The notes beneath the pieces were generated by a model. The model searched no databases, had not been told where the DNA came from, and worked only from the letters and a program-made list of their open reading frames with translations. From an uncultured Dysgonomonas sp. (lineage in GTDB: Bacteria; Bacteroidota; Bacteroidia; Bacteroidales; Dysgonomonadaceae): DNA of 64,000 bases. Positions within the stretch are counted from its first letter, which is position 1, and each line of letters starts with the position of its first letter. The stretch spans positions 742,948-806,947 of the forward strand of contig NZ_LT599032.1 in assembly GCF_900079725.1 (NCBI RefSeq), given 5' to 3'. This document shows positions 15,753 through 44,214 of the stretch, piece after piece. A program made the translations under genes and the position numbers.

Positions 15753-15878
15753 ATTGTTTAATACATAACGACTATCTTAATTTAAAAATTGGGGGCTTTA
15801 GCTCACATCTGCCGCGCCCTCATTTTTGGCATTGCCCAAAAGTAAGCAAAAAACTAGCGCTCGGTTCCGCGGCGACCC
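15753..15878 (+). repeat. 5' fragment of the structured dispersed repeat (copy 3)
   Basis: The 334-bp gap before the terminase-like ORF starts with TGTTTAATACATAACGACTA. From there it tracks copy 2 of the large repeat (39758-40340) through CTTAATTTAA, GCCGCGCCCTC, the hairpin TTTTGG-CATTGC-CCAAAA, AAGCAAAAAACTAG and GGCGACCC. The match then stops. The CCCGGGCTTG block is missing from the front, so it is both internally deleted and 3'-truncated. The remaining gap to the ORF is AT-rich and empty. Confidence 0.8.
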
Positions 15879-15977
15879 AAAAAGGCTGCATCGCTTCTAT
15901 TTTCACTAAATATTTATCAAAATAAAACATCTTTATCTATATAAGAAATTAATTATTAATATCAATATTTAAGTCTT

Positions 15978-33337: not shown

Positions 33338-33585
33338 TAGAAAAACTGAAAAAAGAACTGATACAGGAATTAAATCTTGAAGAAATGACTCCCGAAGATA
33401 TAGATGCCGATGCCCCGTTATTCGGAGACGGTCTGGGCTTGGATTCCATCGACGCGCTCGAAATTATCCTTATCCTCGAACGTAATTACGGCATCAAGAT
33501 CAAAAAGCCGGGAGAAGGAGAAGGTCGCGAAATATTCAGATCGGTAAGATCATTAGCCGAATTTATTTCTACACATCAGCAATAA
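33325..33585 (+). CDS. Acyl carrier protein 2
   Basis: An 86-residue ACP with attachment Ser41 in LGLDSIDALEII. It overlaps the fused ketosynthase by 13 bp and abuts the next ketosynthase. Two ACPs with different sequences in one operon suggest separate roles, for example one for extension and one for transfer or initiation (inference). Confidence 0.9.
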   Translation: MEELIEKLKKELIQELNLEEMTPEDIDADAPLFGDGLGLDSIDALEIILILERNYGIKIKKPGEGEGREIFRSVRSLAEFISTHQQ

Positions 33586-34769
33586 TGAAGATTTACATTA
33601 CAGGAACAGGTATTGTATCAGGTATCGGCATAAATGCAGAAGAAAACCTGCATGCTATCCGGCACAAAAGTCATGGAATGGGCAAAGTCACTCTTTTCTC
33701 TACCAGCCTCAATGTTCCTGTAAGTGAAGTGAAATATACAAATCAGGAGCTGAAAGAATTATTGGCTCTACCTGCCTATAAGACATATTCCCGGACTGCT
33801 TTGCTTGGAATACTAGCGGCCAAGGAGGCCTTATCGGATTCAGATATAGACGTAAACGCCCAACGTACCGGACTTATATCTTCCACCTCGGTGGGCGGTA
33901 TGGATTTAAGTGAAAACTTTTACGTCGATTTCCGGAAAGATGAGGAAAAGGGCCGTTTAAGGGATATTGTTTCGCATGATTGCGGCGACAGCACTCAAAA
34001 AATTGCGTCCTATCTGGGTATAACCGATTATGTAACAACAATAAGTACAGCCTGTTCTTCCGCAGGAAACGCGATAATGCTGGGGGCAAGGATGATTAAA
34101 AACGGATTGCTGGATGCTGTTATCGTCGGTGGAACCGATGCTTTATGTAAGTTTACCCTGAATGGCTTTAACTCGCTGATGATTCTGGATAAAGAACTGT
34201 GCAAACCATTTGACAAATCCCGTGAAGGCCTGAATCTGGGCGAAGGTGCCGGTTATCTTGTATTACAATCAGAAAAAACACTAAAAAGAAAACCATATTG
34301 TATTCTCTCCGGCTATTCCAATGCAAATGATGCTTATCACCAGACAGCCACTTCTCCCGATGGAGACGGGCCGTACCTGTGTATGAAAGAAGCTGTTGAA
34401 ATGGCAAATATACTTCCCTGTAATGTGAATTATATCAATGTGCATGGCACGGGAACGCCTAACAACGACCTTTCGGAAGGGAAAGCGATCATACGTCTTT
34501 TTGGCGAGAATATCCCCAAATTCAGTTCATTGAAACCGTTTATCGGACATACATTAGGAGCTTCGGAAGGGATAGAGGCAGCCCTGTCCGCATTATCCAT
34601 ATCTAAAGGGATCGTTTATCCGAATCTCAACTTTAAAGAACCGATAGAAGATACGAATCTTATTCCTGTTACAGAATGGGACGAAGGCTTAGCGATCAAA
34701 CATGTCTTATCCAACTCTTTCGGATTCGGAGGGAATGATTCTTCTTTACTTTTTTCGGCAATAGAATAG
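33585..34769 (+). CDS. FabF-type beta-ketoacyl-ACP synthase (catalytic)
   Basis: A 394-residue ketosynthase with Cys157 in STACSSAGN, His in VHGTGTPNND, His in FIGHTLGASEG, and the terminal GFGGNDSS loop. It is a full catalytic KS II-like enzyme. It is followed by one complete copy of the structured repeat, which separates it from a degenerate ketosynthase gene that could be its partner subunit, as in KS-CLF pairs. Confidence 0.92.
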   Translation: MKIYITGTGIVSGIGINAEENLHAIRHKSHGMGKVTLFSTSLNVPVSEVKYTNQELKELLALPAYKTYSRTALLGILAAKEALSDSDIDVNAQRTGLISSTSVGGMDLSENFYVDFRKDEEKGRLRDIVSHDCGDSTQKIASYLGITDYVTTISTACSSAGNAIMLGARMIKNGLLDAVIVGGTDALCKFTLNGFNSLMILDKELCKPFDKSREGLNLGEGAGYLVLQSEKTLKRKPYCILSGYSNANDAYHQTATSPDGDGPYLCMKEAVEMANILPCNVNYINVHGTGTPNNDLSEGKAIIRLFGENIPKFSSLKPFIGHTLGASEGIEAALSALSISKGIVYPNLNFKEPIEDTNLIPVTEWDEGLAIKHVLSNSFGFGGNDSSLLFSAIE

Positions 34770-34805
34770 ATTATTAAGTAAACAAAAAAATAATGGTATA
34801 TTTAA

Positions 34806-35393
34806 AATGTTCAATTATTTAATGCATAGCTACCGTCTTTGTTTATTTTTAGAGGCTTGGCTCACTACTGCCGCGCCCTCCCGGGCTTGTCCTTCCTTTT
34901 GGCATTGCCCAAAAGGAAGCAAAAAGCTAGTGCTTCGTTCCTCGGCGACCCACAATCGGTTTGTCGGCTGAAAGTGACAAACGGGCTATCGCCCCGTCCC
35001 TTTCTACGCCGTCTGCACCGTGTGGGTGCCCCGCCTGTGGAACTTATGCACAGATGCTGACGCCTTAGTAAGCAAAGCCCTTTGGTGAATAAATACGCGT
35101 CAGCCTGCGCCGTTAGCTTCACGAACGGGGCACCCGTAGGATGAAAAGACGAAAAAAACGGAAACGTGTTTGAGCTTATCCGCCGATTCGGATTGTGCTA
35201 TCTTTCCAGCGAGTTTTTCCGTTTCGTCTTTTTGTCCGTTACGGGTCGGCCTTTGAAGCGGGGCGCTAAAGCGTTTTTGGTTCCTTTTGCGGCTTTGGGC
35301 AAAAGGAACACAAGCAATCTGTGATTGCGCGTAGTATAAATGCATCAAATAATTGAACATTAAAACATATCAATAAATAGTATACAATACTTA
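34806..35393 (+). repeat. Structured dispersed repeat, copy 1 (full length)
   Basis: A non-coding element of about 588 bp fills the gap between two pigment genes. Terminal inverted repeats of 21 bp with one mismatch lie at 34806-34826 and 35341-35361. A tail shared with copy 2 continues to 35393, three bases before the next start codon. Stems: CTTCCTTTTGG / CCAAAAGGAAG (34892-34919); GGGTGCCCCG (35024) with CGGGGCACCC (35126) enclosing CTGTG / CACAG (35035-35053) and GCTGACGC / GCGTCAGC (35056-35104); GGATGAAAAGACGAAA (35139) with TTTCGTCTTTTTGTCC (35222) enclosing ATCCG / CGGAT; and GTTCCTTTTGC / GCAAAAGGAAC (35280-35309). Open frames in it are artefacts. Confidence 0.85.
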
Positions 35394-35396
35394 GTT

Positions 35397-36347
35397 ATGA
35401 AAAGACCTTGTTATATAAACTCATTCGCATCTATCCACCCCGATGGTATTACCGGAGAAAGCGGGATGCTGCATGCGGTGGAGCCTGATTACAAGCACAT
35501 CATAACCAACGCGAATATGCGCCGCCGTATGAGCCACATTGTAAGGATGGGTGTTGCGTGCGGATTGGTTTGTCTGGAACAAAGCGGGAACAAAAATATA
35601 GATGCCATTATTACAGCTACCGGACTTGGATGCCTGGCCGATACAGAAAAATTTCTGGATAATCTCATAGAAAATGAGGAGCAATTGCTGAATCCTTCGG
35701 CTTTTATACAATCTACATTCAATGTCATAGGCGCTCAGATCGCCCTGATTACAGGCTGCCATTCTTATAACAATACCTATGTGCACCGCGGCCTCAGCTT
35801 CGAAAGCGCCCTGATCGACGGCATGATGAGGATATGGGAAGGTGACAATCAGGTCCTGATCGGTGCTGCCGATGAAGTGTTACCCGCCGGGCATACTATC
35901 TTGAAAAGGCTGGGTATGCTCGATAATATTATATTGGGCGAAGGCTCCCAGTTTTTTACATTAGCGGCTGAAAAAGAATTATATACTGTTGCAGAACTGG
36001 CAGCTGTCAGGACATTTACAGGAAAGCTGTCTTCGGAGGAGATATTGCAAAAGATAAAGATATTCCTGGCAGAAAACAATCTGAATCCAGCAGATATACA
36101 ACATCTTATCATAGGCAGAAATGGAAATACAACCGATGACCTGGTATATAATGTTGTGGAGCAATTATTCCCATCCACCTCATACTCGACATTCAAAGAC
36201 ATTTGCGGGGAATACCCGACCGCTTCGGCTTTCGGTATGTGGAAAGGATTAAATCGGTTGGAAAAATCCAGTGATATACAATACCTGCTTATCTACAACC
36301 ATTATTACACGGTAAATCATTCATTGATATTATTGAAAAAATGCTGA
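35397..36347 (+). CDS. Degenerate ketosynthase (chain-length-factor-like) subunit
   Basis: A 316-residue protein resembling the N-terminal two thirds of a ketosynthase (IDAIITATGLGCLADTEKFLDNL, PSAFIQSTFNVIGAQIALITG) but without the catalytic Cys: the position reads CHSYNNTYVHRG. The HGT and GH histidine motifs of the C-terminal half are also not present in recognisable form, and the protein is about 80 residues shorter than FabF. A non-catalytic partner that sets chain length is the likely role, by analogy to KS-CLF pairs. It starts immediately after repeat copy 1 and overlaps the deacetylase by 7 bp. Confidence 0.75.
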   Translation: MKRPCYINSFASIHPDGITGESGMLHAVEPDYKHIITNANMRRRMSHIVRMGVACGLVCLEQSGNKNIDAIITATGLGCLADTEKFLDNLIENEEQLLNPSAFIQSTFNVIGAQIALITGCHSYNNTYVHRGLSFESALIDGMMRIWEGDNQVLIGAADEVLPAGHTILKRLGMLDNIILGEGSQFFTLAAEKELYTVAELAAVRTFTGKLSSEEILQKIKIFLAENNLNPADIQHLIIGRNGNTTDDLVYNVVEQLFPSTSYSTFKDICGEYPTASAFGMWKGLNRLEKSSDIQYLLIYNHYYTVNHSLILLKKC

Positions 36348-37033
36348 TTTTCATTTCATCCATAGCTGCTATACTGCTTATATTCCTTATCTATGCCTCT
36401 TACAGCATTCGGTCGGAAATATACTTAAAAGCATTATGCCGGAATGAAAAGAAAGGAAAAGTAGTAGCGCTCACATTTGACGACGGACCCGACAAAGAGC
36501 AGACGCCCAAAGTGCTTGATATTCTAAAAGAATATGATATCAAAGCTACTTTTTTTTGTATAGGCAGCAAGATTAAAGGGAATGAAAGTATCCTGTTAAG
36601 GATGAAAGACGAAGGCCATTCGATCGGTAATCATACTTTTAATCACTTTTTTTTGTTTCCTTTGTATGCGTCGCAACGGATGAAATCTGAGCTAAGCGAT
36701 TGCGAAAAGACTATTGAGGAGGTAACAGGAGAAAGAACGATATTGTTTCGTCCGCCTTTCGGCATCACCAATCCAACTGTAGCAAAGGCTGTTAAAGCAA
36801 TGGACTATATAACTATCGGCTGGAGTATCCGCTCTTTAGATACATGTAAGAAAGAGAAGACGGTATTGAAGAGAATAAAGCGAGGACTAAAGCCCGGAGC
36901 GGTCATTCTCTTACACGATCCATTACCACAGAGTGACAGCCTGTTACCAAAAATAATGGAACTTTTGAAAGAAAACGATTACACCATAGAGAGAGTAGAT
37001 AAATTATTTGATATACCTAAAACAACGAAATGA
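36341..37033 (+). CDS. Polysaccharide deacetylase family protein (NodB-like)
   Basis: A 230-residue carbohydrate esterase family 4-type protein with an N-terminal membrane anchor. Motif 1 is TFDDGP (Asp47, Asp48), motif 2 is GNHTFNH, and motif 3 is RPPFG, so the metal site is complete. In a polyene cluster it may deacetylate the sugar head group that carries the pigment, or the sugar added by the glycosyltransferase downstream. That link is inference; peptidoglycan is the alternative. Confidence 0.85.
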   Translation: MLIFISSIAAILLIFLIYASYSIRSEIYLKALCRNEKKGKVVALTFDDGPDKEQTPKVLDILKEYDIKATFFCIGSKIKGNESILLRMKDEGHSIGNHTFNHFFLFPLYASQRMKSELSDCEKTIEEVTGERTILFRPPFGITNPTVAKAVKAMDYITIGWSIRSLDTCKKEKTVLKRIKRGLKPGAVILLHDPLPQSDSLLPKIMELLKENDYTIERVDKLFDIPKTTK

Positions 37034-37659
37034 AACGCATATATATTTGTTATTTACTTATTTTCATTAGTTTACCGCAGATAAACGCGCAGATGAAAAA
37101 GATGAAAGATGTGGAAGCCTTTAACAAACGTGTTCTCGCGGAGGCTGTATCAGTAAAAAGTATAGAAAGTGATTTTACTCAAATAAAGCATCTCGACCTG
37201 TTTAATGAAGATATAACTTCGAAAGGTAAATTCTATTACAGGCACAATGATAAAATAAGTCTCGATTATAGTTCCCCTACAAAATACCTGATTGTTATAA
37301 ATGCCGATAAACTAAAGATAATTTCGGATGGTAAAAAAAATGTTGTGAACCTGAAATCGAATAAAGTCATGAGTGAAATGAGAAGTATGCTCGCCGCGTG
37401 TATGTCGGGCAATATTTCGCAGATCTCAGGTTATAACATGGAATACTTCGAAGATGCGAACTCCTACCTGATAAAAATAAAACCAACTAACAAATCCGTA
37501 CAGGCGTATATCTCAGGCTTCGATATTTATATGGACAAAAAAGATATGTCGGTATCCAAATTGCGTATATCCGAGAATGCCACCGATTATACCGATTACC
37601 TGTTTCAGAACAAAAAGTTTAATACACTGACAGATGACAAAAAGTTTTCAGTTAATTAG
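37030..37659 (+). CDS. LolA-like outer-membrane lipoprotein/lipid carrier
   Basis: A 209-residue periplasmic protein with a cleavable signal peptide ending INAQ. The body has the LolA pattern: VKSIESDFTQIKHLDLFNEDITSKGKFYY-like strands (Phe/Gln-rich start), DYSSPTKYLIVINADKL and a repeated beta structure with a hydrophobic cavity. LolA ferries acylated molecules across the periplasm. A cluster-specific paralogue here probably carries the acylated pigment rather than lipoproteins. The start overlaps the deacetylase stop by 4 bp. Confidence 0.8.
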   Translation: MKRIYICYLLIFISLPQINAQMKKMKDVEAFNKRVLAEAVSVKSIESDFTQIKHLDLFNEDITSKGKFYYRHNDKISLDYSSPTKYLIVINADKLKIISDGKKNVVNLKSNKVMSEMRSMLAACMSGNISQISGYNMEYFEDANSYLIKIKPTNKSVQAYISGFDIYMDKKDMSVSKLRISENATDYTDYLFQNKKFNTLTDDKKFSVN

Positions 37660-38182
37660 TATCCTGTTGGTATGCCTTACTTTCGTCTCCTGTTCTAAGA
37701 ATACATATCCGCTGAAAACAGGGCCTGCCCCTATTATATCCGTTGGGAATAAAGCACAGAAGTATAATATGACGTTGGATTTCGGAGGTAAACATTTCAA
37801 TGGCATGCTTATCGCAAAAACAATGGAAGATGGCGAAATACGCATTGTCGCATCTACCATGTTCGGACTCAGTCTGTTCGATTTCGGAATGAAAGGTGAA
37901 AACTGGAATATTTACAGTTGTATAGAGCCTATGCGGAAAGACCGTGTACTGAAAATCTTTGAAACTGACTTCAAACTGTTATTTTTATCGGACAGGAACG
38001 TTAAAAAAATAGAAAAAACAAAAGAATATACTAAATTTGTAACAGGAGGAGGTATCTCCAAGGGGGTAATTTATGCCATACCTGAGACAGAAAACGATTC
38101 TGAGAAAATACAAATAAAGCACTCCTGGCTACGATTAACTATCGGACTGGAGAAAATGGGAGAAAACAATGTTATTGAATGA
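37634..38182 (+). CDS. Putative lipoprotein, possible LolB-like acceptor
   Basis: A 182-residue lipoprotein: hydrophobic start, then VSCSKN with lipidated Cys at about residue 20. The mature part has beta-rich segments (NMTLDFGGKHFNGMLIAKT, IRIVASTMFGLSLFDFGMKG). The pattern of a lipoprotein overlapping a LolA-like gene by 26 bp suggests it is the outer-membrane acceptor of that carrier, as LolB is for LolA. Assignment to LolB is structural guesswork; the lipoprotein call is firm. Confidence 0.65.
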   Translation: MTKSFQLISILLVCLTFVSCSKNTYPLKTGPAPIISVGNKAQKYNMTLDFGGKHFNGMLIAKTMEDGEIRIVASTMFGLSLFDFGMKGENWNIYSCIEPMRKDRVLKIFETDFKLLFLSDRNVKKIEKTKEYTKFVTGGGISKGVIYAIPETENDSEKIQIKHSWLRLTIGLEKMGENNVIE

Positions 38183-38552
38183 TTTTTACGAAATAACCGA
38201 TGTAATGAAAGGTGAGCCCGCTCATCGTTTAAGAGTGAAGCTGAATCCCTCGCATCGCATATATGAAGGACATTTCGCGGGACAACCAATAGTTCCGGGA
38301 GTATGCACATTACAAATCATAAAAGACTGCGCCGAAAAACTATCCGGTAAAGAGTATATGTACGCATATATATCCTCCTCAAAGTTCCTGTCATTGGTCG
38401 ACCCCATGGTTAACGGCCTGATAGAGTTTAATATTTCGTTAAAAGATACAGACGATAACCGTATCTCCCTGTCCGCAGAAGGAAAATATCAAAACACAGA
38501 TACCGTATTCATCAAAGTAAAAGCAACTTTGAAAGAGATTGAAAATGAATGA
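38169..38552 (+). CDS. FabZ-like 3-hydroxyacyl-ACP dehydratase 2
   Basis: A 127-residue hot-dog protein with the FabZ-type motif YEGHFAGQPIVPGVCTLQ containing the catalytic His. It is close to the ApeI/FabZ-like dehydratases of aryl polyene clusters. With the first dehydratase it would make the polyene double bonds. It overlaps both neighbours by 14 bp, so it is part of a tightly coupled block. Confidence 0.85.
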   Translation: MLLNDFYEITDVMKGEPAHRLRVKLNPSHRIYEGHFAGQPIVPGVCTLQIIKDCAEKLSGKEYMYAYISSSKFLSLVDPMVNGLIEFNISLKDTDDNRISLSAEGKYQNTDTVFIKVKATLKEIENE

Positions 38553-39744
38553 ATCCGTAGATACTATAATATGGCAGGAGAAATTAAATAATCTCGGTAT
38601 CGTTGTTATTATCCCTACATACAATAACGACAGGACTCTCCTATCCGTTATCGAAGGGGTAAAACAATACAGCAAACATATTATAGTGGTCAACGATGGC
38701 TCTACAGACACAACATCCGGAATACTGAAATCCATCCCCGGCATTCAGATCATTACCCACACAAAAAATAAGGGAAAAGGCTATGCTCTCAAAAATGGAT
38801 TATCAGCAGCAAAAGAGCAGGGATTCAGATATGCAATAACGATAGACTCCGACGGACAGCACTACCCTGCCGATATACCTGCTTTCGCAAATGAAATAGA
38901 AATGCATCCTGATACGATGCTTGTGGGGGCACGGAATCTGACAGCCAATAACATGCCGGGTAAAAATACATTTGCCAATAAATTCTCGAACTTCTGGTTT
39001 CAACTGGAAACAGGCATAAAACTGGAAGACACACAATCCGGCTATCGCCTTTATCCGCTCCATCATATAGGAAAAATGAAGTATTGCACAGCCAAATACG
39101 AATTCGAACTGGAAATGATCGTATTTCTGGCATGGAAAGGTGTGAATGTAAAAAATATCCCTGTAAATGTATATTACCCGCCACAAGGCGAACGGGTATC
39201 GCACTTCCGACCGTTAAGGGATTTTACACGCATCAGCATACTGAATACAATACTTGTTATAGTCACCTTCTTGTGGATACTACCCTTGAAATTTTTCAGG
39301 AAACTGACATGGACAAATATCCGCGCTTTTATAGATAAGGAAATACTAAAGTCGAAAGATTCGAACAGAACTATGACACTATCCATTATGTTGGGGATTT
39401 TCATGGGAATTGTTCCCATATGGGGTTATCAGATGATTGTGACGGTTTTCTTTGCCCATTTTCTGAAACTGAACAAAGTAATTTCGCTGGTTGCATCCAA
39501 TATCAGTATTCCCCCGATAATGCCGTTTCTTTTATATGGGAGCTATGCTACAGGCTGCTTTCTTACAAATAGCCCTGTATCGTTCGATGTCACCGATATT
39601 TCATTGGAAAAGATGAAAACGGTCTTGTTCCAGTATCTGACCGGCAGTATAGTTTTCGCTTTGGTTTGCAGCATGCTGGCAGGCATTATATCGGCAAGTT
39701 TACTGCTGATATTCCGAAAAAGGAAACGGGCTGTAGATGTTTAA
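38539..39744 (+). CDS. Glycosyltransferase family 2 protein with C-terminal DUF2062 membrane domain
   Basis: A 401-residue fusion. Residues 20-240 are a GT-A glycosyltransferase: VVIIPTYNN, VVNDGSTD, IDSDGQH (a DXD-type metal site) and EDTQSGYRLYP. Residues 275-395 carry a DUF2062-type hydrophobic domain (LGIFMGIVPIWGYQM). Similar proteins transfer a sugar to a polyprenyl or lipid carrier. Here it may glycosylate the lipid anchor of the pigment (inference). Repeat copy 2 follows. Confidence 0.85.
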   Translation: MKMNESVDTIIWQEKLNNLGIVVIIPTYNNDRTLLSVIEGVKQYSKHIIVVNDGSTDTTSGILKSIPGIQIITHTKNKGKGYALKNGLSAAKEQGFRYAITIDSDGQHYPADIPAFANEIEMHPDTMLVGARNLTANNMPGKNTFANKFSNFWFQLETGIKLEDTQSGYRLYPLHHIGKMKYCTAKYEFELEMIVFLAWKGVNVKNIPVNVYYPPQGERVSHFRPLRDFTRISILNTILVIVTFLWILPLKFFRKLTWTNIRAFIDKEILKSKDSNRTMTLSIMLGIFMGIVPIWGYQMIVTVFFAHFLKLNKVISLVASNISIPPIMPFLLYGSYATGCFLTNSPVSFDVTDISLEKMKTVLFQYLTGSIVFALVCSMLAGIISASLLLIFRKRKRAVDV

Positions 39745-39757
39745 GTAATCTAATGAC

Positions 39758-40340
39758 ATGTTTTAATGTATAGTGACTATCTTAATTTAAAATTGGTGAC
39801 TTTGTCTCATTACTGTCGCGCCCTCCCGGGCTTGCCATCACTTTTGGCATTGCCCAAAAGTAAGCAAAAAGCTAGTGCTAAGTTCCTCGGCGACCTGTCA
39901 ACAGCTTGCCGGCTGAAAGTGACAAACGGGCTGTCGCCCCGTCCCTTTCTACGCCGACTGCACTGGACAGGTGCCCGCCTGCGGAACCAATGCGCATCTG
40001 CTGACGCCATAGTAAGGCAAAGCCCCTTCGAGAATAAAATATGCGTCAGCCAGCGCCATAAGCTTCACGGACGGGCACCCGTCAGAAGAGAAAGGCTAAA
40101 AAACGAAAACGTGTTTGAGCTTATCCGACAATTCGGATTATACAAACCCCGGAGCGAGTTTTTTCGTTTAGCCGTCTCTACTGCTAACGGGTCGGCCTTT
40201 GAAGCGGGGCGCTAAAGTATTTTTGGTTCCTTTTGGGGATTTGGTCAAAAGGAACACAAGCAATCTGTGATTGCGCGTAGTAAAAATCACATAAAATAAT
40301 AGAACATTTAAGCCTATCAATAAATGTTGTACAATACTTA
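39758..40340 (+). repeat. Structured dispersed repeat, copy 2 (full length)
   Basis: A non-coding element of about 583 bp in the same orientation as the operon and as copy 1. Shared blocks alternate with diverged ones, but the same stems are retained with different letters: ACTTTTGG / CCAAAAGT (39840-39861), GGTGCCCG (39970) with CGGGCACC (40072), CTGCG / CGCAT (39979-39997), GCTGACGC / GCGTCAGC (40000-40050), GGCTAAA (40094) with TTTAGCC (40167), ATCCG / CGGAT (40123-40138), GTTCCTTTTG / CAAAAGGAAC. Its terminal inverted repeat is eroded. It ends TACAATACTTA, 13 bp before the next start codon. Confidence 0.85.
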
Positions 40341-40353
40341 ACATAGAGTATAA

Positions 40354-43300
40354 ATGAGTAACTTTTTCGTCAATCTATATAATTATTTCACCCGGCATAA
40401 GATAATCCTCTATTTGTCGCTGGTTGCAAGTATAGCCATTATGGGTTATTTTGCCCTGCAACTCAAATTCGAGGAAAATATCACCCAGTTCTTTCCTGAT
40501 ACCAAAAACGAACAAAACCTGAATACTGTTTTCGACAACCTGCGTATCAAGGACAAGATTATTGTCATGTTCTCGTTATCGGATAAGGAACAGGACAACG
40601 ATACCGCAATATTGACAGAAAGCGCGACCTTATTCGCAGACAGCCTGTTAGCCCGGACACAAGGAACATATGTAAACAATATACTCCTCCGTATAGACGA
40701 CAGCCTGAAAACCGAGATGCAGAATTTCGTCTATGACAATCTTCCGATCTTACTCAGCGACAGCGATTATCAGCGTATAGACTCCTTGTTTTCAAAAGAG
40801 AAAGTCGCATCGGTTATGCAACGGAACTATTCCAACCTGTTGTCCCCGGCCGGAGGCTTTCTCAAAGAATACATTATGAGAGACCCTCTCGGCCTTGGAG
40901 GAAACGCACTGAAACGCCTGCAAGACTTCCAACTGGATAGTAATTTCGAGCAACAAGACGGATACATTTTCACCAAAGACGGCTCCATGTTGCTGTTGTT
41001 CATTACTCCTACATACAGTATGGGAAGTACGGGGGAAAACGACAAACTAATTTCGGCCATAGAAAAAGAAATAGCCGCCATTAACAAAGACTATCCGTCA
41101 GTGAAAGCCGAATACTACGGTGGTCCTTCTGTCGGTGTATATAATGCCCGTCAGATAAAAGAAGACTCCATACTGACAATCACTCTGGCACTGGTTATAA
41201 TCATTGTTTTCATTCTATTGGCCTTCAGGCAAAAGAGAACGATCTTTCAGATCATCACCCCGACTATCTTCGGAGGATTGTTCGCCCTCTTTATGATTTC
41301 ACTATTGAAAGGCAGTATTTCGTCTATAGCCGTCGGTTCCGGTTCCATAATCATGGGTGTCGCCCTCAGTTATTCCATACATATGGTCGTACACCAGAGC
41401 CACGTGGCCTCTGTGGCACAACTGATAAAGGAACTCACCTACCCTCTTACCGTCGGTAGTTTTACAACAATCGGCGCATTCTTAGGATTACTTTTCACCA
41501 GTTCGGAATTATTACGTGACTTCGGGCTTTTCGCATCCATGACGCTGATAGGTACAATTATCTTCTGCCTCATATACCTGCCTCACTTCCTCGACGGGAG
41601 GGTTCATCAGAAAAGAAGCGCATTGCTCCGCTTTATAGAGCGCTTCAATGCTTACCGTTTCGATAAAAACAAATGGCTTGTGGGCGGCATCTTAATATTA
41701 ACGGTCATTTGTGTATTTACTTCACGAAATGTAGGTTTCGATGCCGATATGATGCATATGAATTATGAACCGGAACATTTGAAAGAAGCTGAACAGAAAT
41801 TGGCGGAGATCGTAGATAACGATAAGAAAAATATCCTGTTTGTAAGTGTAGGTAAAAATACAGATGAAACAATACAAAACTATAATGCGACCAATAAAAA
41901 ATTATCAGTACTAAAAGAGCAAGGCCTGATCAAAAACTTTGCATCTGCTGATTACTTCCTTATCCCCGAAGGTATCCGGCAAGAACGTCTGCAAAAATGG
42001 AATAATTACTGGACTGCCGAAAAGAAAGAATATTTGAAAACAACGCTGAAAAGCGAGTCCGCAGCATATAATTTTCGTCAGGATGCTTTTGCCCCATTCT
42101 ACAAATGGATAGATTCTGACTTTACCCTGCATAAAGATATTACAGAGACAAACCGGATATTAAACGACTGGCAAACTAATGTGCCGGGCCTTACCCTGCT
42201 CATTTCACAAGTGCAGCTCGATGATAAAAATAAGGAAGAAGTATATCAACACTTCAATAATGGCAATGAAGTTGTGATTTTAGACCGCTCCTTCTTTACA
42301 AAGAAGTGGGTATCTGCTATCAATGATGACTTTTATCTGATATTATTCATTTCATCATTCCTCATTTTCATCACTTTACTGATATCTTACGGACGTATCG
42401 AATTGACACTGATCAGTTTCTCCCCGATGTTTATCAGCTGGATTATCATTATCGGCATCATGGGGATATCCGGGATGGAATTCAATATCATCAATATCAT
42501 CCTGTCCACTTTCATATTTGGTATCGGGGACGATTTCAGTATATTTATTATGGACGGTTTACAGAATAAATACCGGACAAATAAGCCTGCGCTGAACGGA
42601 CATAAAACAGCCATCTTCTTTTCGGCTTTCACCATTATTGTAGGAATGGGAGCCTTGATTTTCGCACAGCATCCCGCCTTGCAGTCTATCTCGTTGATGT
42701 CTATCCTCGGAATGATAGTTGTGGTTTTGGTTTCGTACACTATCCCTCCTGTTATCTTCCGCATCTTTATGTCTTCGCAGACAACAAAAGGGCTACCGCC
42801 ATATACACTGGCCTCTATTTTGATAACTGCCTTTATATACGGGCTATTCCTTGCCGGGTGCCTGTTCCTCCGCATAACGATTTTACTATTATATCTCGTT
42901 CCTGTAAAGAGGAGGAAAAAACGACAATTCATGTGCTACCTGATAATGCTCAACTGCCGCTTCATTTGCTTTGCTGGATTTATATTGAAAAAAAAGAGAG
43001 TAAATGTCGATGGTGAAACATTTAAGAAACCTGCCATTATCATAGCCAACCACCAGTCTTTCCTCGATATACTTCTGCTTCTTACGCTCCATCCTAAAAT
43101 GGTGATGGTCACAAACGAATGGGTATGGAGGTCTCCGTTCTTCGGCGCAGTAATCAGGTATGCAGGCTATTTTTATACAGGCGAAGGATATGAAAATTCG
43201 GTGTCGCACATCAAAGAACGTATCGATGAAGGATACTCAGTTGTCATATTCCCTGAAGGCACACGTTCATACGATGGTAGATTGAAGCGTTTCCACAAAG

Positions 43301-44214
43301 GTGCGTTCTATCTATCCGAGACACTGAAACTGGATATAATCCCTATTGTATTATATGGCACAGGGATGGTTATTTCAAAATCGCAGCCATTCTATCTGAA
43401 ACGGGGAATAATAGCGACTAAAATCCTGCCCCGCATTACTTATGAAGACCGCTCGTTTGGAAACACGTATAAAGAAAGGACAAAAAAGATAGCTTCTCTT
43501 TTTTCCACAGAATATGCTAAGGTTTGTGCCGAATATAATACGGCCATCAATCCATATTTCTATCATATGCTGGTAAAGAACTACATCTATAAAGGTCCGG
43601 TGATGGAATGGTATGTACGCATAAAGGTGAAAATGGAAAAAAGCTATAAGATATTCGACGAACTGATACCTGAAAGGGGGCAAATCACAGATATCGGTTG
43701 CGGATACGGTACTTTAGGATATATGCTTACCATGCTATCGCCCGACAGGCAGGTATTAGGCTTAGACTATGATGAAGATAAAGCCGAAGTCGCCCGGTAC
43801 GGATATTTACATAATGAGAATACCTCTTTTGTATATGCCGACGCATTGGAATATCCGCTACCCGAAAGCGATATGTTTGTATTGAATGACATGTTACACT
43901 ATATGGATAGCCGGAAACAGGAATCGTTATTAAAAAAATGCATACAGAATCTTCGTGACAACGGGTTGATTATCGTTCGTGACGGGGATAGCCGGGATAA
44001 GCAAAAACAAAGACTGACAAAGTTATCGGAGATATTCTCTACCCGTATATTTGGTTTTAATAAAACAAAAGAAGAACTTTGTTTTACTTCGGCTGAGAAA
44101 CTGTATGAAATAGCTGAGACTTGCAATATGACTGTAGAGAGCTTCAAAAACGATAAATATACGTCTAATACTATTTTTATATTTAAGAAGAAAGAAGAGA
44201 AAACAAATGGGTAA
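40354..44214 (+). CDS. MMPL/RND-type exporter fused to a PlsC-like acyltransferase and a methyltransferase
   Basis: A 1286-residue three-part protein. Residues 1-865 form an MMPL/RND pump with two blocks of about six helices (first at 20-40 and 255-395, second at 640-800) and two large periplasmic loops. After a short helical linker comes a phospholipid/glycerol acyltransferase domain with NHQSFLD (NHX4D, 899-905) and FPEGTRS (966-972). The last 180 residues are a class I methyltransferase with DIGCGYG at about 1113-1119. In aryl polyene clusters of Proteobacteria these functions are usually separate genes. It probably moves and acylates the lipid-linked polyene at the inner membrane. It overlaps the next gene by 8 bp. 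Confidence 0.87.
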   Translation: MSNFFVNLYNYFTRHKIILYLSLVASIAIMGYFALQLKFEENITQFFPDTKNEQNLNTVFDNLRIKDKIIVMFSLSDKEQDNDTAILTESATLFADSLLARTQGTYVNNILLRIDDSLKTEMQNFVYDNLPILLSDSDYQRIDSLFSKEKVASVMQRNYSNLLSPAGGFLKEYIMRDPLGLGGNALKRLQDFQLDSNFEQQDGYIFTKDGSMLLLFITPTYSMGSTGENDKLISAIEKEIAAINKDYPSVKAEYYGGPSVGVYNARQIKEDSILTITLALVIIIVFILLAFRQKRTIFQIITPTIFGGLFALFMISLLKGSISSIAVGSGSIIMGVALSYSIHMVVHQSHVASVAQLIKELTYPLTVGSFTTIGAFLGLLFTSSELLRDFGLFASMTLIGTIIFCLIYLPHFLDGRVHQKRSALLRFIERFNAYRFDKNKWLVGGILILTVICVFTSRNVGFDADMMHMNYEPEHLKEAEQKLAEIVDNDKKNILFVSVGKNTDETIQNYNATNKKLSVLKEQGLIKNFASADYFLIPEGIRQERLQKWNNYWTAEKKEYLKTTLKSESAAYNFRQDAFAPFYKWIDSDFTLHKDITETNRILNDWQTNVPGLTLLISQVQLDDKNKEEVYQHFNNGNEVVILDRSFFTKKWVSAINDDFYLILFISSFLIFITLLISYGRIELTLISFSPMFISWIIIIGIMGISGMEFNIINIILSTFIFGIGDDFSIFIMDGLQNKYRTNKPALNGHKTAIFFSAFTIIVGMGALIFAQHPALQSISLMSILGMIVVVLVSYTIPPVIFRIFMSSQTTKGLPPYTLASILITAFIYGLFLAGCLFLRITILLLYLVPVKRRKKRQFMCYLIMLNCRFICFAGFILKKKRVNVDGETFKKPAIIIANHQSFLDILLLLTLHPKMVMVTNEWVWRSPFFGAVIRYAGYFYTGEGYENSVSHIKERIDEGYSVVIFPEGTRSYDGRLKRFHKGAFYLSETLKLDIIPIVLYGTGMVISKSQPFYLKRGIIATKILPRITYEDRSFGNTYKERTKKIASLFSTEYAKVCAEYNTAINPYFYHMLVKNYIYKGPVMEWYVRIKVKMEKSYKIFDELIPERGQITDIGCGYGTLGYMLTMLSPDRQVLGLDYDEDKAEVARYGYLHNENTSFVYADALEYPLPESDMFVLNDMLHYMDSRKQESLLKKCIQNLRDNGLIIVRDGDSRDKQKQRLTKLSEIFSTRIFGFNKTKEELCFTSAEKLYEIAETCNMTVESFKNDKYTSNTIFIFKKKEEKTNG

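Follow-up and report, generated by a model that had tools for sequence, protein, structure and literature searches.

A probable modular, non-autonomous Dysgonomonas transposable element of nested palindromes, with arms likely matched at the DNA level

The standard way of proving that an RNA is functional is to show compensatory change. Two copies of a non-coding repeat in the window (the whole stretch of 64,000 nucleotides analysed here) differ in sequence and yet keep the same nested inverted repeats, and they were originally predicted to be a candidate structured RNA. Does this locus encode an RNA, or can matched changes on this scale be a property of the DNA itself?

Two copies in the window and a shared fold

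Both copies are found where the original prediction placed them, and its five examples of matched changes can be seen by eye in both. We widened their limits to approximately 34774-35394 and 39741-40341, because the outer arms run past the coordinates first given; copy 1 is edged by a candidate TTAA (34774-34777) and TTAG (35391-35394). The features are as follows.

34774..35394, + strand: copy 1 with its outer arms (edges placed by inference from the arms and the empty site)
34778..34830, + strand: copy 1 left outer arm, an imperfect inverted repeat with 35337-35390 (sequence reading; inner limit approximate)
34893..34918, + strand: copy 1 5' local hairpin TTCCTTTTGGCATTGCCCAAAAGGAA, with ACTTTTGG/CCAAAAGT as its copy 2 counterpart
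34930..35051, + strand: copy 1 domain A (consensus fold)
34930-34933/35048-35051, 34944-34959/35018-35035, 34970-34977/34997-35004 and 34984-34986/34991-34993, + strand: copy 1 domain A helices (consensus fold)
35107..35266, + strand: copy 1 domain B (consensus fold)
35107-35111/35262-35266, 35130-35139/35237-35247 and 35156-35164/35216-35224, + strand: copy 1 domain B helices
35280..35309, + strand: copy 1 3' local hairpin GTTCCTTTTGC...GCAAAAGGAAC, with C-G/G-C flips between copies
35310..35332, + strand: copy 1 terminal hairpin ACAAGCAATC...GATTGCGCGT
35337..35390, + strand: copy 1 right outer arm (sequence reading; inner limit approximate)
39741..40341, + strand: copy 2, with TTAA at both edges (39741-39744 and 40338-40341)
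39875..39995, + strand: copy 2 domain A
40053..40212, + strand: copy 2 domain B
40226..40278, + strand: copy 2 3' local hairpin and terminal hairpin
15753..15882, + strand: diverged partial match, 72% identical to the element across query positions 25-166 (blastn)

Each copy lies between co-oriented genes and follows immediately on the upstream gene's stop codon. The co-oriented group around them (window 33585-44214) includes, by Pfam, ketoacyl synthases at 33585-34769 and 35397-36347, a polysaccharide deacetylase, a LolA-like protein, a glycosyltransferase and a 1286-aa protein with MMPL, acyltransferase and methyltransferase domains, and presumably resembles an aryl-polyene or flexirubin-type cluster. 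In line with the expectation that no protein is encoded, we found no conserved protein in the element, the longest ORF of each of 40 core copies being between 42 and 125 aa; a 149-aa ORF across copy 2 (39766-40215) is a mechanical listing.

We then examined 40 full-length copies from 8 genomes (the source genome, G019, G001, G004, G018, G015, G024 and G012). The claim of a conserved fold holds in this set: a strand-neutral consensus of 85 pairs has 96.8% of its cells Watson-Crick, and 78 double Watson-Crick-to-Watson-Crick events and 88 single events were counted on it. In 12 simulated alignments, which used the same tree and site-specific rates, 1-7 doubles fell in the observed structure and 0-2 in the alignments' own folds, so the matched changes are not due to chance. 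Together with the rates of change, which average 1.73 per paired column versus 4.01 per unpaired column, this supports the original prediction's view of covariation in a conserved fold rather than simple decay. The unpaired motif TGTTTGAGCTTA in domain B is also highly conserved. Of the ten column pairs with the strongest covariation, six fall inside the ordinary alifold structure (0.01 expected, for a fold that itself uses covariation), and an all-pairs covariation test of low power, performed without a given structure, gave for its two null models 1 and 2 pairs that exceeded every one of 20 nulls.

The stems singled out by the original prediction did not fare equally well across the 40 copies. 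CGGAAA/TTTCCG (239 of 240 cells Watson-Crick, 6 double events) and CCTTTTGG/CCAAAAGG (271 of 320, 6 doubles) were recovered clearly. TGTG/CACA (122 of 160, 2 doubles) and GACGAAA/TTTCGTC (156 of 280, 1 double), the latter adjoining an A run of variable length, are present but weaker in fixed alignment columns. The fifth stem, taken without its dropped columns as GGGTGCCC/GGGCACCC, is likewise among the weaker ones; it is Watson-Crick in 270 of 320 cells with 3 doubles, and its arms pair elsewhere in the consensus fold.

Ends, mobility and distribution

The source genome, a single 5.2-Mb contig, contains 49 blastn matches to the element, from full length down to short pieces; 40 of 57 first-look candidates from this genome were scored. 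Matches were present in 20 of 61 genomes, namely 18 of 25 from the same genus (source genome included) and 2 of 36 others. An exact pattern for a conserved part of domain B, searched across 84,980 named species with one genome apiece, gave 67 stretches. Of these, 66 come from records whose titles read Dysgonomonas, Prevotella sp. or Bacteroidia bacterium; the remaining one, in Lentisphaera, has by eye no likeness to the element outside the pattern and was taken as chance. Plasmid and phage records gave no element match by blastn, and viral contigs gave none to one exact domain B pattern.

The element is modular. Full copies span approximately 550-670 bp between ends, half elements consist of domain A or domain B alone, and short forms are 215 bp (L144) and 270 bp (L076) long. 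In a genome of another genus, a relative (L044 in G029) has the same plan with a different inner sequence, and similar ends also enclose other palindromic or unrelated cargo (L125, L126, L128, L132 and L145). A second recurring module of approximately 75 bp, with ATTATGCCGAGTCACGAAAAACG or a similar string, was seen beside or within the right arm (right flanks; L010, L013 and L027), and relative G016 carries direct repeats of approximately 319 bp with an open frame (L148, 871-1796).

The empty-site comparison covered only the window's two copies: the relatives G019 and G009 have no element at the copy 1 site, and G009 has none at the copy 2 site either, with flank identities of approximately 94-96% for G019 and 75-77% for G009. 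At the copy 2 site G019 has an inverted element approximately 80% identical to copy 2, the outermost arms of which are unturned; this could be either an inversion in place or the substitution of another copy.

Inverted ends of the GCGAATCAGTAGTTGA type and 9-bp target duplications characterise a large class of copies: the start is GNGAATCAGTAGTTGA-like, the end is its reverse complement, and each adjoins the AT-rich 9-bp duplication. The mean identity of the duplications is 0.678 versus 0.562 when shuffled (sd 0.016), a value reached in 0 of 2000 shuffles; among lengths of 5 to 12, apart from 9, only 11 was raised (46 of 2000). Fifteen of the 48 candidate end pairs, some of which are overlapping combinations or elements with other cargo and none of which are the window's two copies, match at 8 or 9 of 9 bp. 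With at most one mismatch, the end motif occurs 30 times forward and 22 times in reverse in the source genome, and a reversed-pattern control 3 and 4 times. The window copies and several others have outer ends of the form TTAA/GTA...TAC, unlike the IS982-like ends; the two-ended cases of this type that we looked at were copy 1, copy 2 and the G019 element at the copy 2 site. The hallmarks of a MITE are present in the family: terminal inverted repeats with a target duplication in the class that does not include the window copies, polymorphic sites at the window copies, and many copies without a transposase. The reading of the family as a transposon is well supported. To the eye, the outermost arms of a given copy seemed strikingly well matched; we make no claim of this, because a crude count gave only 7 of 25 against 3.8 in shuffles (237 of 5000).

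A possible driver was identified in relative G001 (L151), in which P0001, a 312-residue transposase frame, is bounded by GCGAATCAGTATTTAAAC and GTTTCAACTACTGATTCGC, matching the ends of the element class. P0001 matches DDE_Tnp_1 and DDE_Tnp_1_3 in Pfam and reaches 117.4 bits against the NCBIfam IS982 model (NF033520), under its curated cut-off of 130; G009 encodes a relative that is 75% identical and has a similar end. The source genome has P0001 only as a 38-residue remnant, with no intact IS982-like gene found, and neither it nor G019 gave an NF033520 match at E 0.001. The genus's other IS982 loci showed no clear pair of these ends, giving scattered single hits with 3 mismatches allowed. An IS982-like transposase may have moved the class with IS982-like ends in trans; the window copies bear other ends. 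At C1:280300-282200 of the source genome (L124), an IS982-like remnant and an ORF resembling a small secreted protein (by eye) lie between GAATCAG-type ends, and this ORF is possibly a passenger gene.

Strand symmetry and the upkeep of matched arms

In a functional RNA a G-C pair may pass via G-U, whereas A-C is bad; in DNA palindromes, or where folding involves both strands, neither is favoured over the other. In the strand-neutral fold of the 40 copies we counted 29 G-U and 29 A-C cells, with 27:24 events, and half-element sequences from other loci (86 sequences; 44 of domain A and 42 of domain B) gave 20:22. The RNase P control, drawn from 30 related genomes, had 66:5 cells and 42:5 events, differing from the element with Fisher values of 1e-4 (full set) and 2e-5 (other copies). 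The tmRNA control from 19 genomes of the same genus points in the RNA direction (19:5 cells, 12:5 events), but its few events set it significantly apart from neither the element (p 0.26 and 0.15) nor RNase P (p 0.11), so that the contrast with RNA rests on RNase P. The overall symmetry is the sum of two small opposite biases: in the full set the 5' helices have 7 G-U and 18 A-C events and the rest 20 and 6 (p 0.0007, post hoc), and the half-element sequences lean in the same way (domain A 7:15, domain B 13:7; Fisher 0.06). Counts of substitution types by domain did not account for this half-by-half bias.

The matched changes also cluster. Adjacent double events on one branch numbered 24 versus 4.3 expected (0 of 1000), 15 versus 3.3 (0) and 9 versus 2.4 (2), and RNase P showed no such excess of tracts (22 versus 22.0). 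On the shortest branches doubles to singles stood at 16:7 in the full set and 5:6 in the domain B set; the 16:7 does not distinguish the element, because doubles outnumber singles in RNase P as well (147:61 overall, 4:2 on the shortest branches). Of the 423 columns enclosed by the 12 tracts, 29 changed where 38 were expected, and 4 tracts had no enclosed change, so whole-module exchange cannot account for every tract. Recombination between copies may explain the tracts in part, with similar stem changes occurring on several branches. Hairpin copying, which the original prediction had itself set against an RNA, is consistent with these compensating tracts on single branches, and DNA-level upkeep of the matched arms is likely.

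Our preferred reading, which we hold to be probable, is that the repeat is a modular non-autonomous Dysgonomonas transposable element composed largely of nested palindromes, its arms matched at the DNA level, probably through hairpin-templated copying and exchange between copies. One arm would be copied from the other mainly by template switching in replication, modules would in addition be exchanged between copies, and the way stems and a few loops are constrained may reflect needs of mobility. Several observations weigh against this reading: the TTAA/GTA...TAC ends of the window copies and several others, the truncated P0001 in the source genome and the sub-threshold score of the intact protein, stems that mutate less than loops, which pure copying does not explain, the opposite biases beneath the strand symmetry, the tmRNA control, the preponderance of doubles in RNase P, and tracts that are few and perhaps partly recombinational.

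Selection on folded DNA, as a cruciform or as single-strand hairpins recognised by a transposase or host protein, would instead make the matched changes ordinary compensation, and we regard this as unlikely while taking it seriously. The constrained stems and loops, including TGTTTGAGCTTA, speak for it, and since a cruciform folds both strands, G-T and A-C should be equally bad, as the event counts of both sets indicate. Short forms that do not carry most of the fold (L144 and L076) still bear the ends, however, with duplications that match at just 5 and 7 of 9, and stepwise compensation does not predict tracts of doubles on one branch. A further reading, to which we give little credence, describes a new mobile element with folded DNA as the working part, the fold being recognised for mobility or for a host function and the covariation selected in DNA; it would comprise two separable palindromic domains, domain A leaning to the minus strand and domain B to the plus strand.

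A structured RNA transcribed from the element, as the original prediction proposed, is improbable. Massive covariation, conserved loops and a multi-branch fold are what such an RNA would show, the 3' domain and terminal hairpins have the G-U excess given above (20:6, and 13:7 in other copies), and the tmRNA ratio does not differ significantly from that of the element. The structured-RNA reading is nevertheless not supported by the main test, G-U versus A-C, in which the overall excess so strong in RNase P is absent and the two domains lean to opposite strands. The reverse strand of the element folds almost as well as the forward strand by alifold (-87.0 and -91.5), in contrast to RNase P (-40.4 and -91.3). 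Orientation relative to flanking genes, scored with a crude ORF caller at 27 of 30 source-genome loci, showed no preference (++10, --9, -+5, +-3), which argues against a leader, a terminator or another cis-acting RNA of fixed direction. The Rfam search suggested at the outset found no family of Rfam 15 at gathering score, and the 7 matches to the copy 1 region at E up to 10 are all under theirs.

That a Y1 (RAYT) transposase mobilises the element as a REPIN-like repeat is very improbable and was already disfavoured: REPIN/RAYT repeats carry two inverted hairpin units near their ends, and the element's two local hairpins are indeed inverted copies of one unit (a hairpin, then CAAAAA) in a genome with one Y1_Tnp gene, but that gene is not flanked by the element (best E 0.09, no significant match), has hairpins of its own and is unlinked, and the element has inverted ends and a 9-bp duplication, which to our knowledge is not expected of Y1 transposases. 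The Y1 gene (L059 1462-1914, C1:2267469) is flanked by short GGAGG/CCTCC-type hairpins, and its neighbours are by eye murC-like and ftsQ-like.

Implications and comparison with known systems

The element represents a natural family with very strong covariation in which an RNA is unsupported by the G-U versus A-C strand test, and it therefore calls for caution in searches that infer RNAs from matched changes. If our reading is true, searches for new RNAs should apply this test as a matter of course, and a family with dozens of copies per genome would be suited to measuring hairpin-templated copying in bacteria.

We found no related description of the element in the open-access literature with a limited set of search terms. 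Monttinen and Loytynoja describe template switching that copies one hairpin arm from the other and so compensates several pairs at once (PMC8794818); their hairpins belong to RNA genes, whereas ours is a mobile repeat without an RNA signature. The IS982-derived MITEs of Cardinium (MITECca01) are described, in the part of the source available, as non-autonomous, approximately 240 bp long, mostly intergenic, present in many copies alongside an intact parent and sharing their ends with an IS982-family element (PMC9769881). The present element is likewise non-autonomous, mostly intergenic and multi-copy, with ends that in one large class match those around an IS982-like transposase, but it is longer, modular and built of long nested palindromes, its putative parent survives in the source genome only as a remnant, and the inner fold and concerted evolution of arms seen here do not appear in that part of the Cardinium description. 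BrickBuilt of Porphyromonas gingivalis (PMC4596501) is an intergenic modular MITE whose core is a 23-nt tandem repeat, unlike that of the present element; by description rather than by sequence, the two are alike in being intergenic, modular and found in related bacterial groups.
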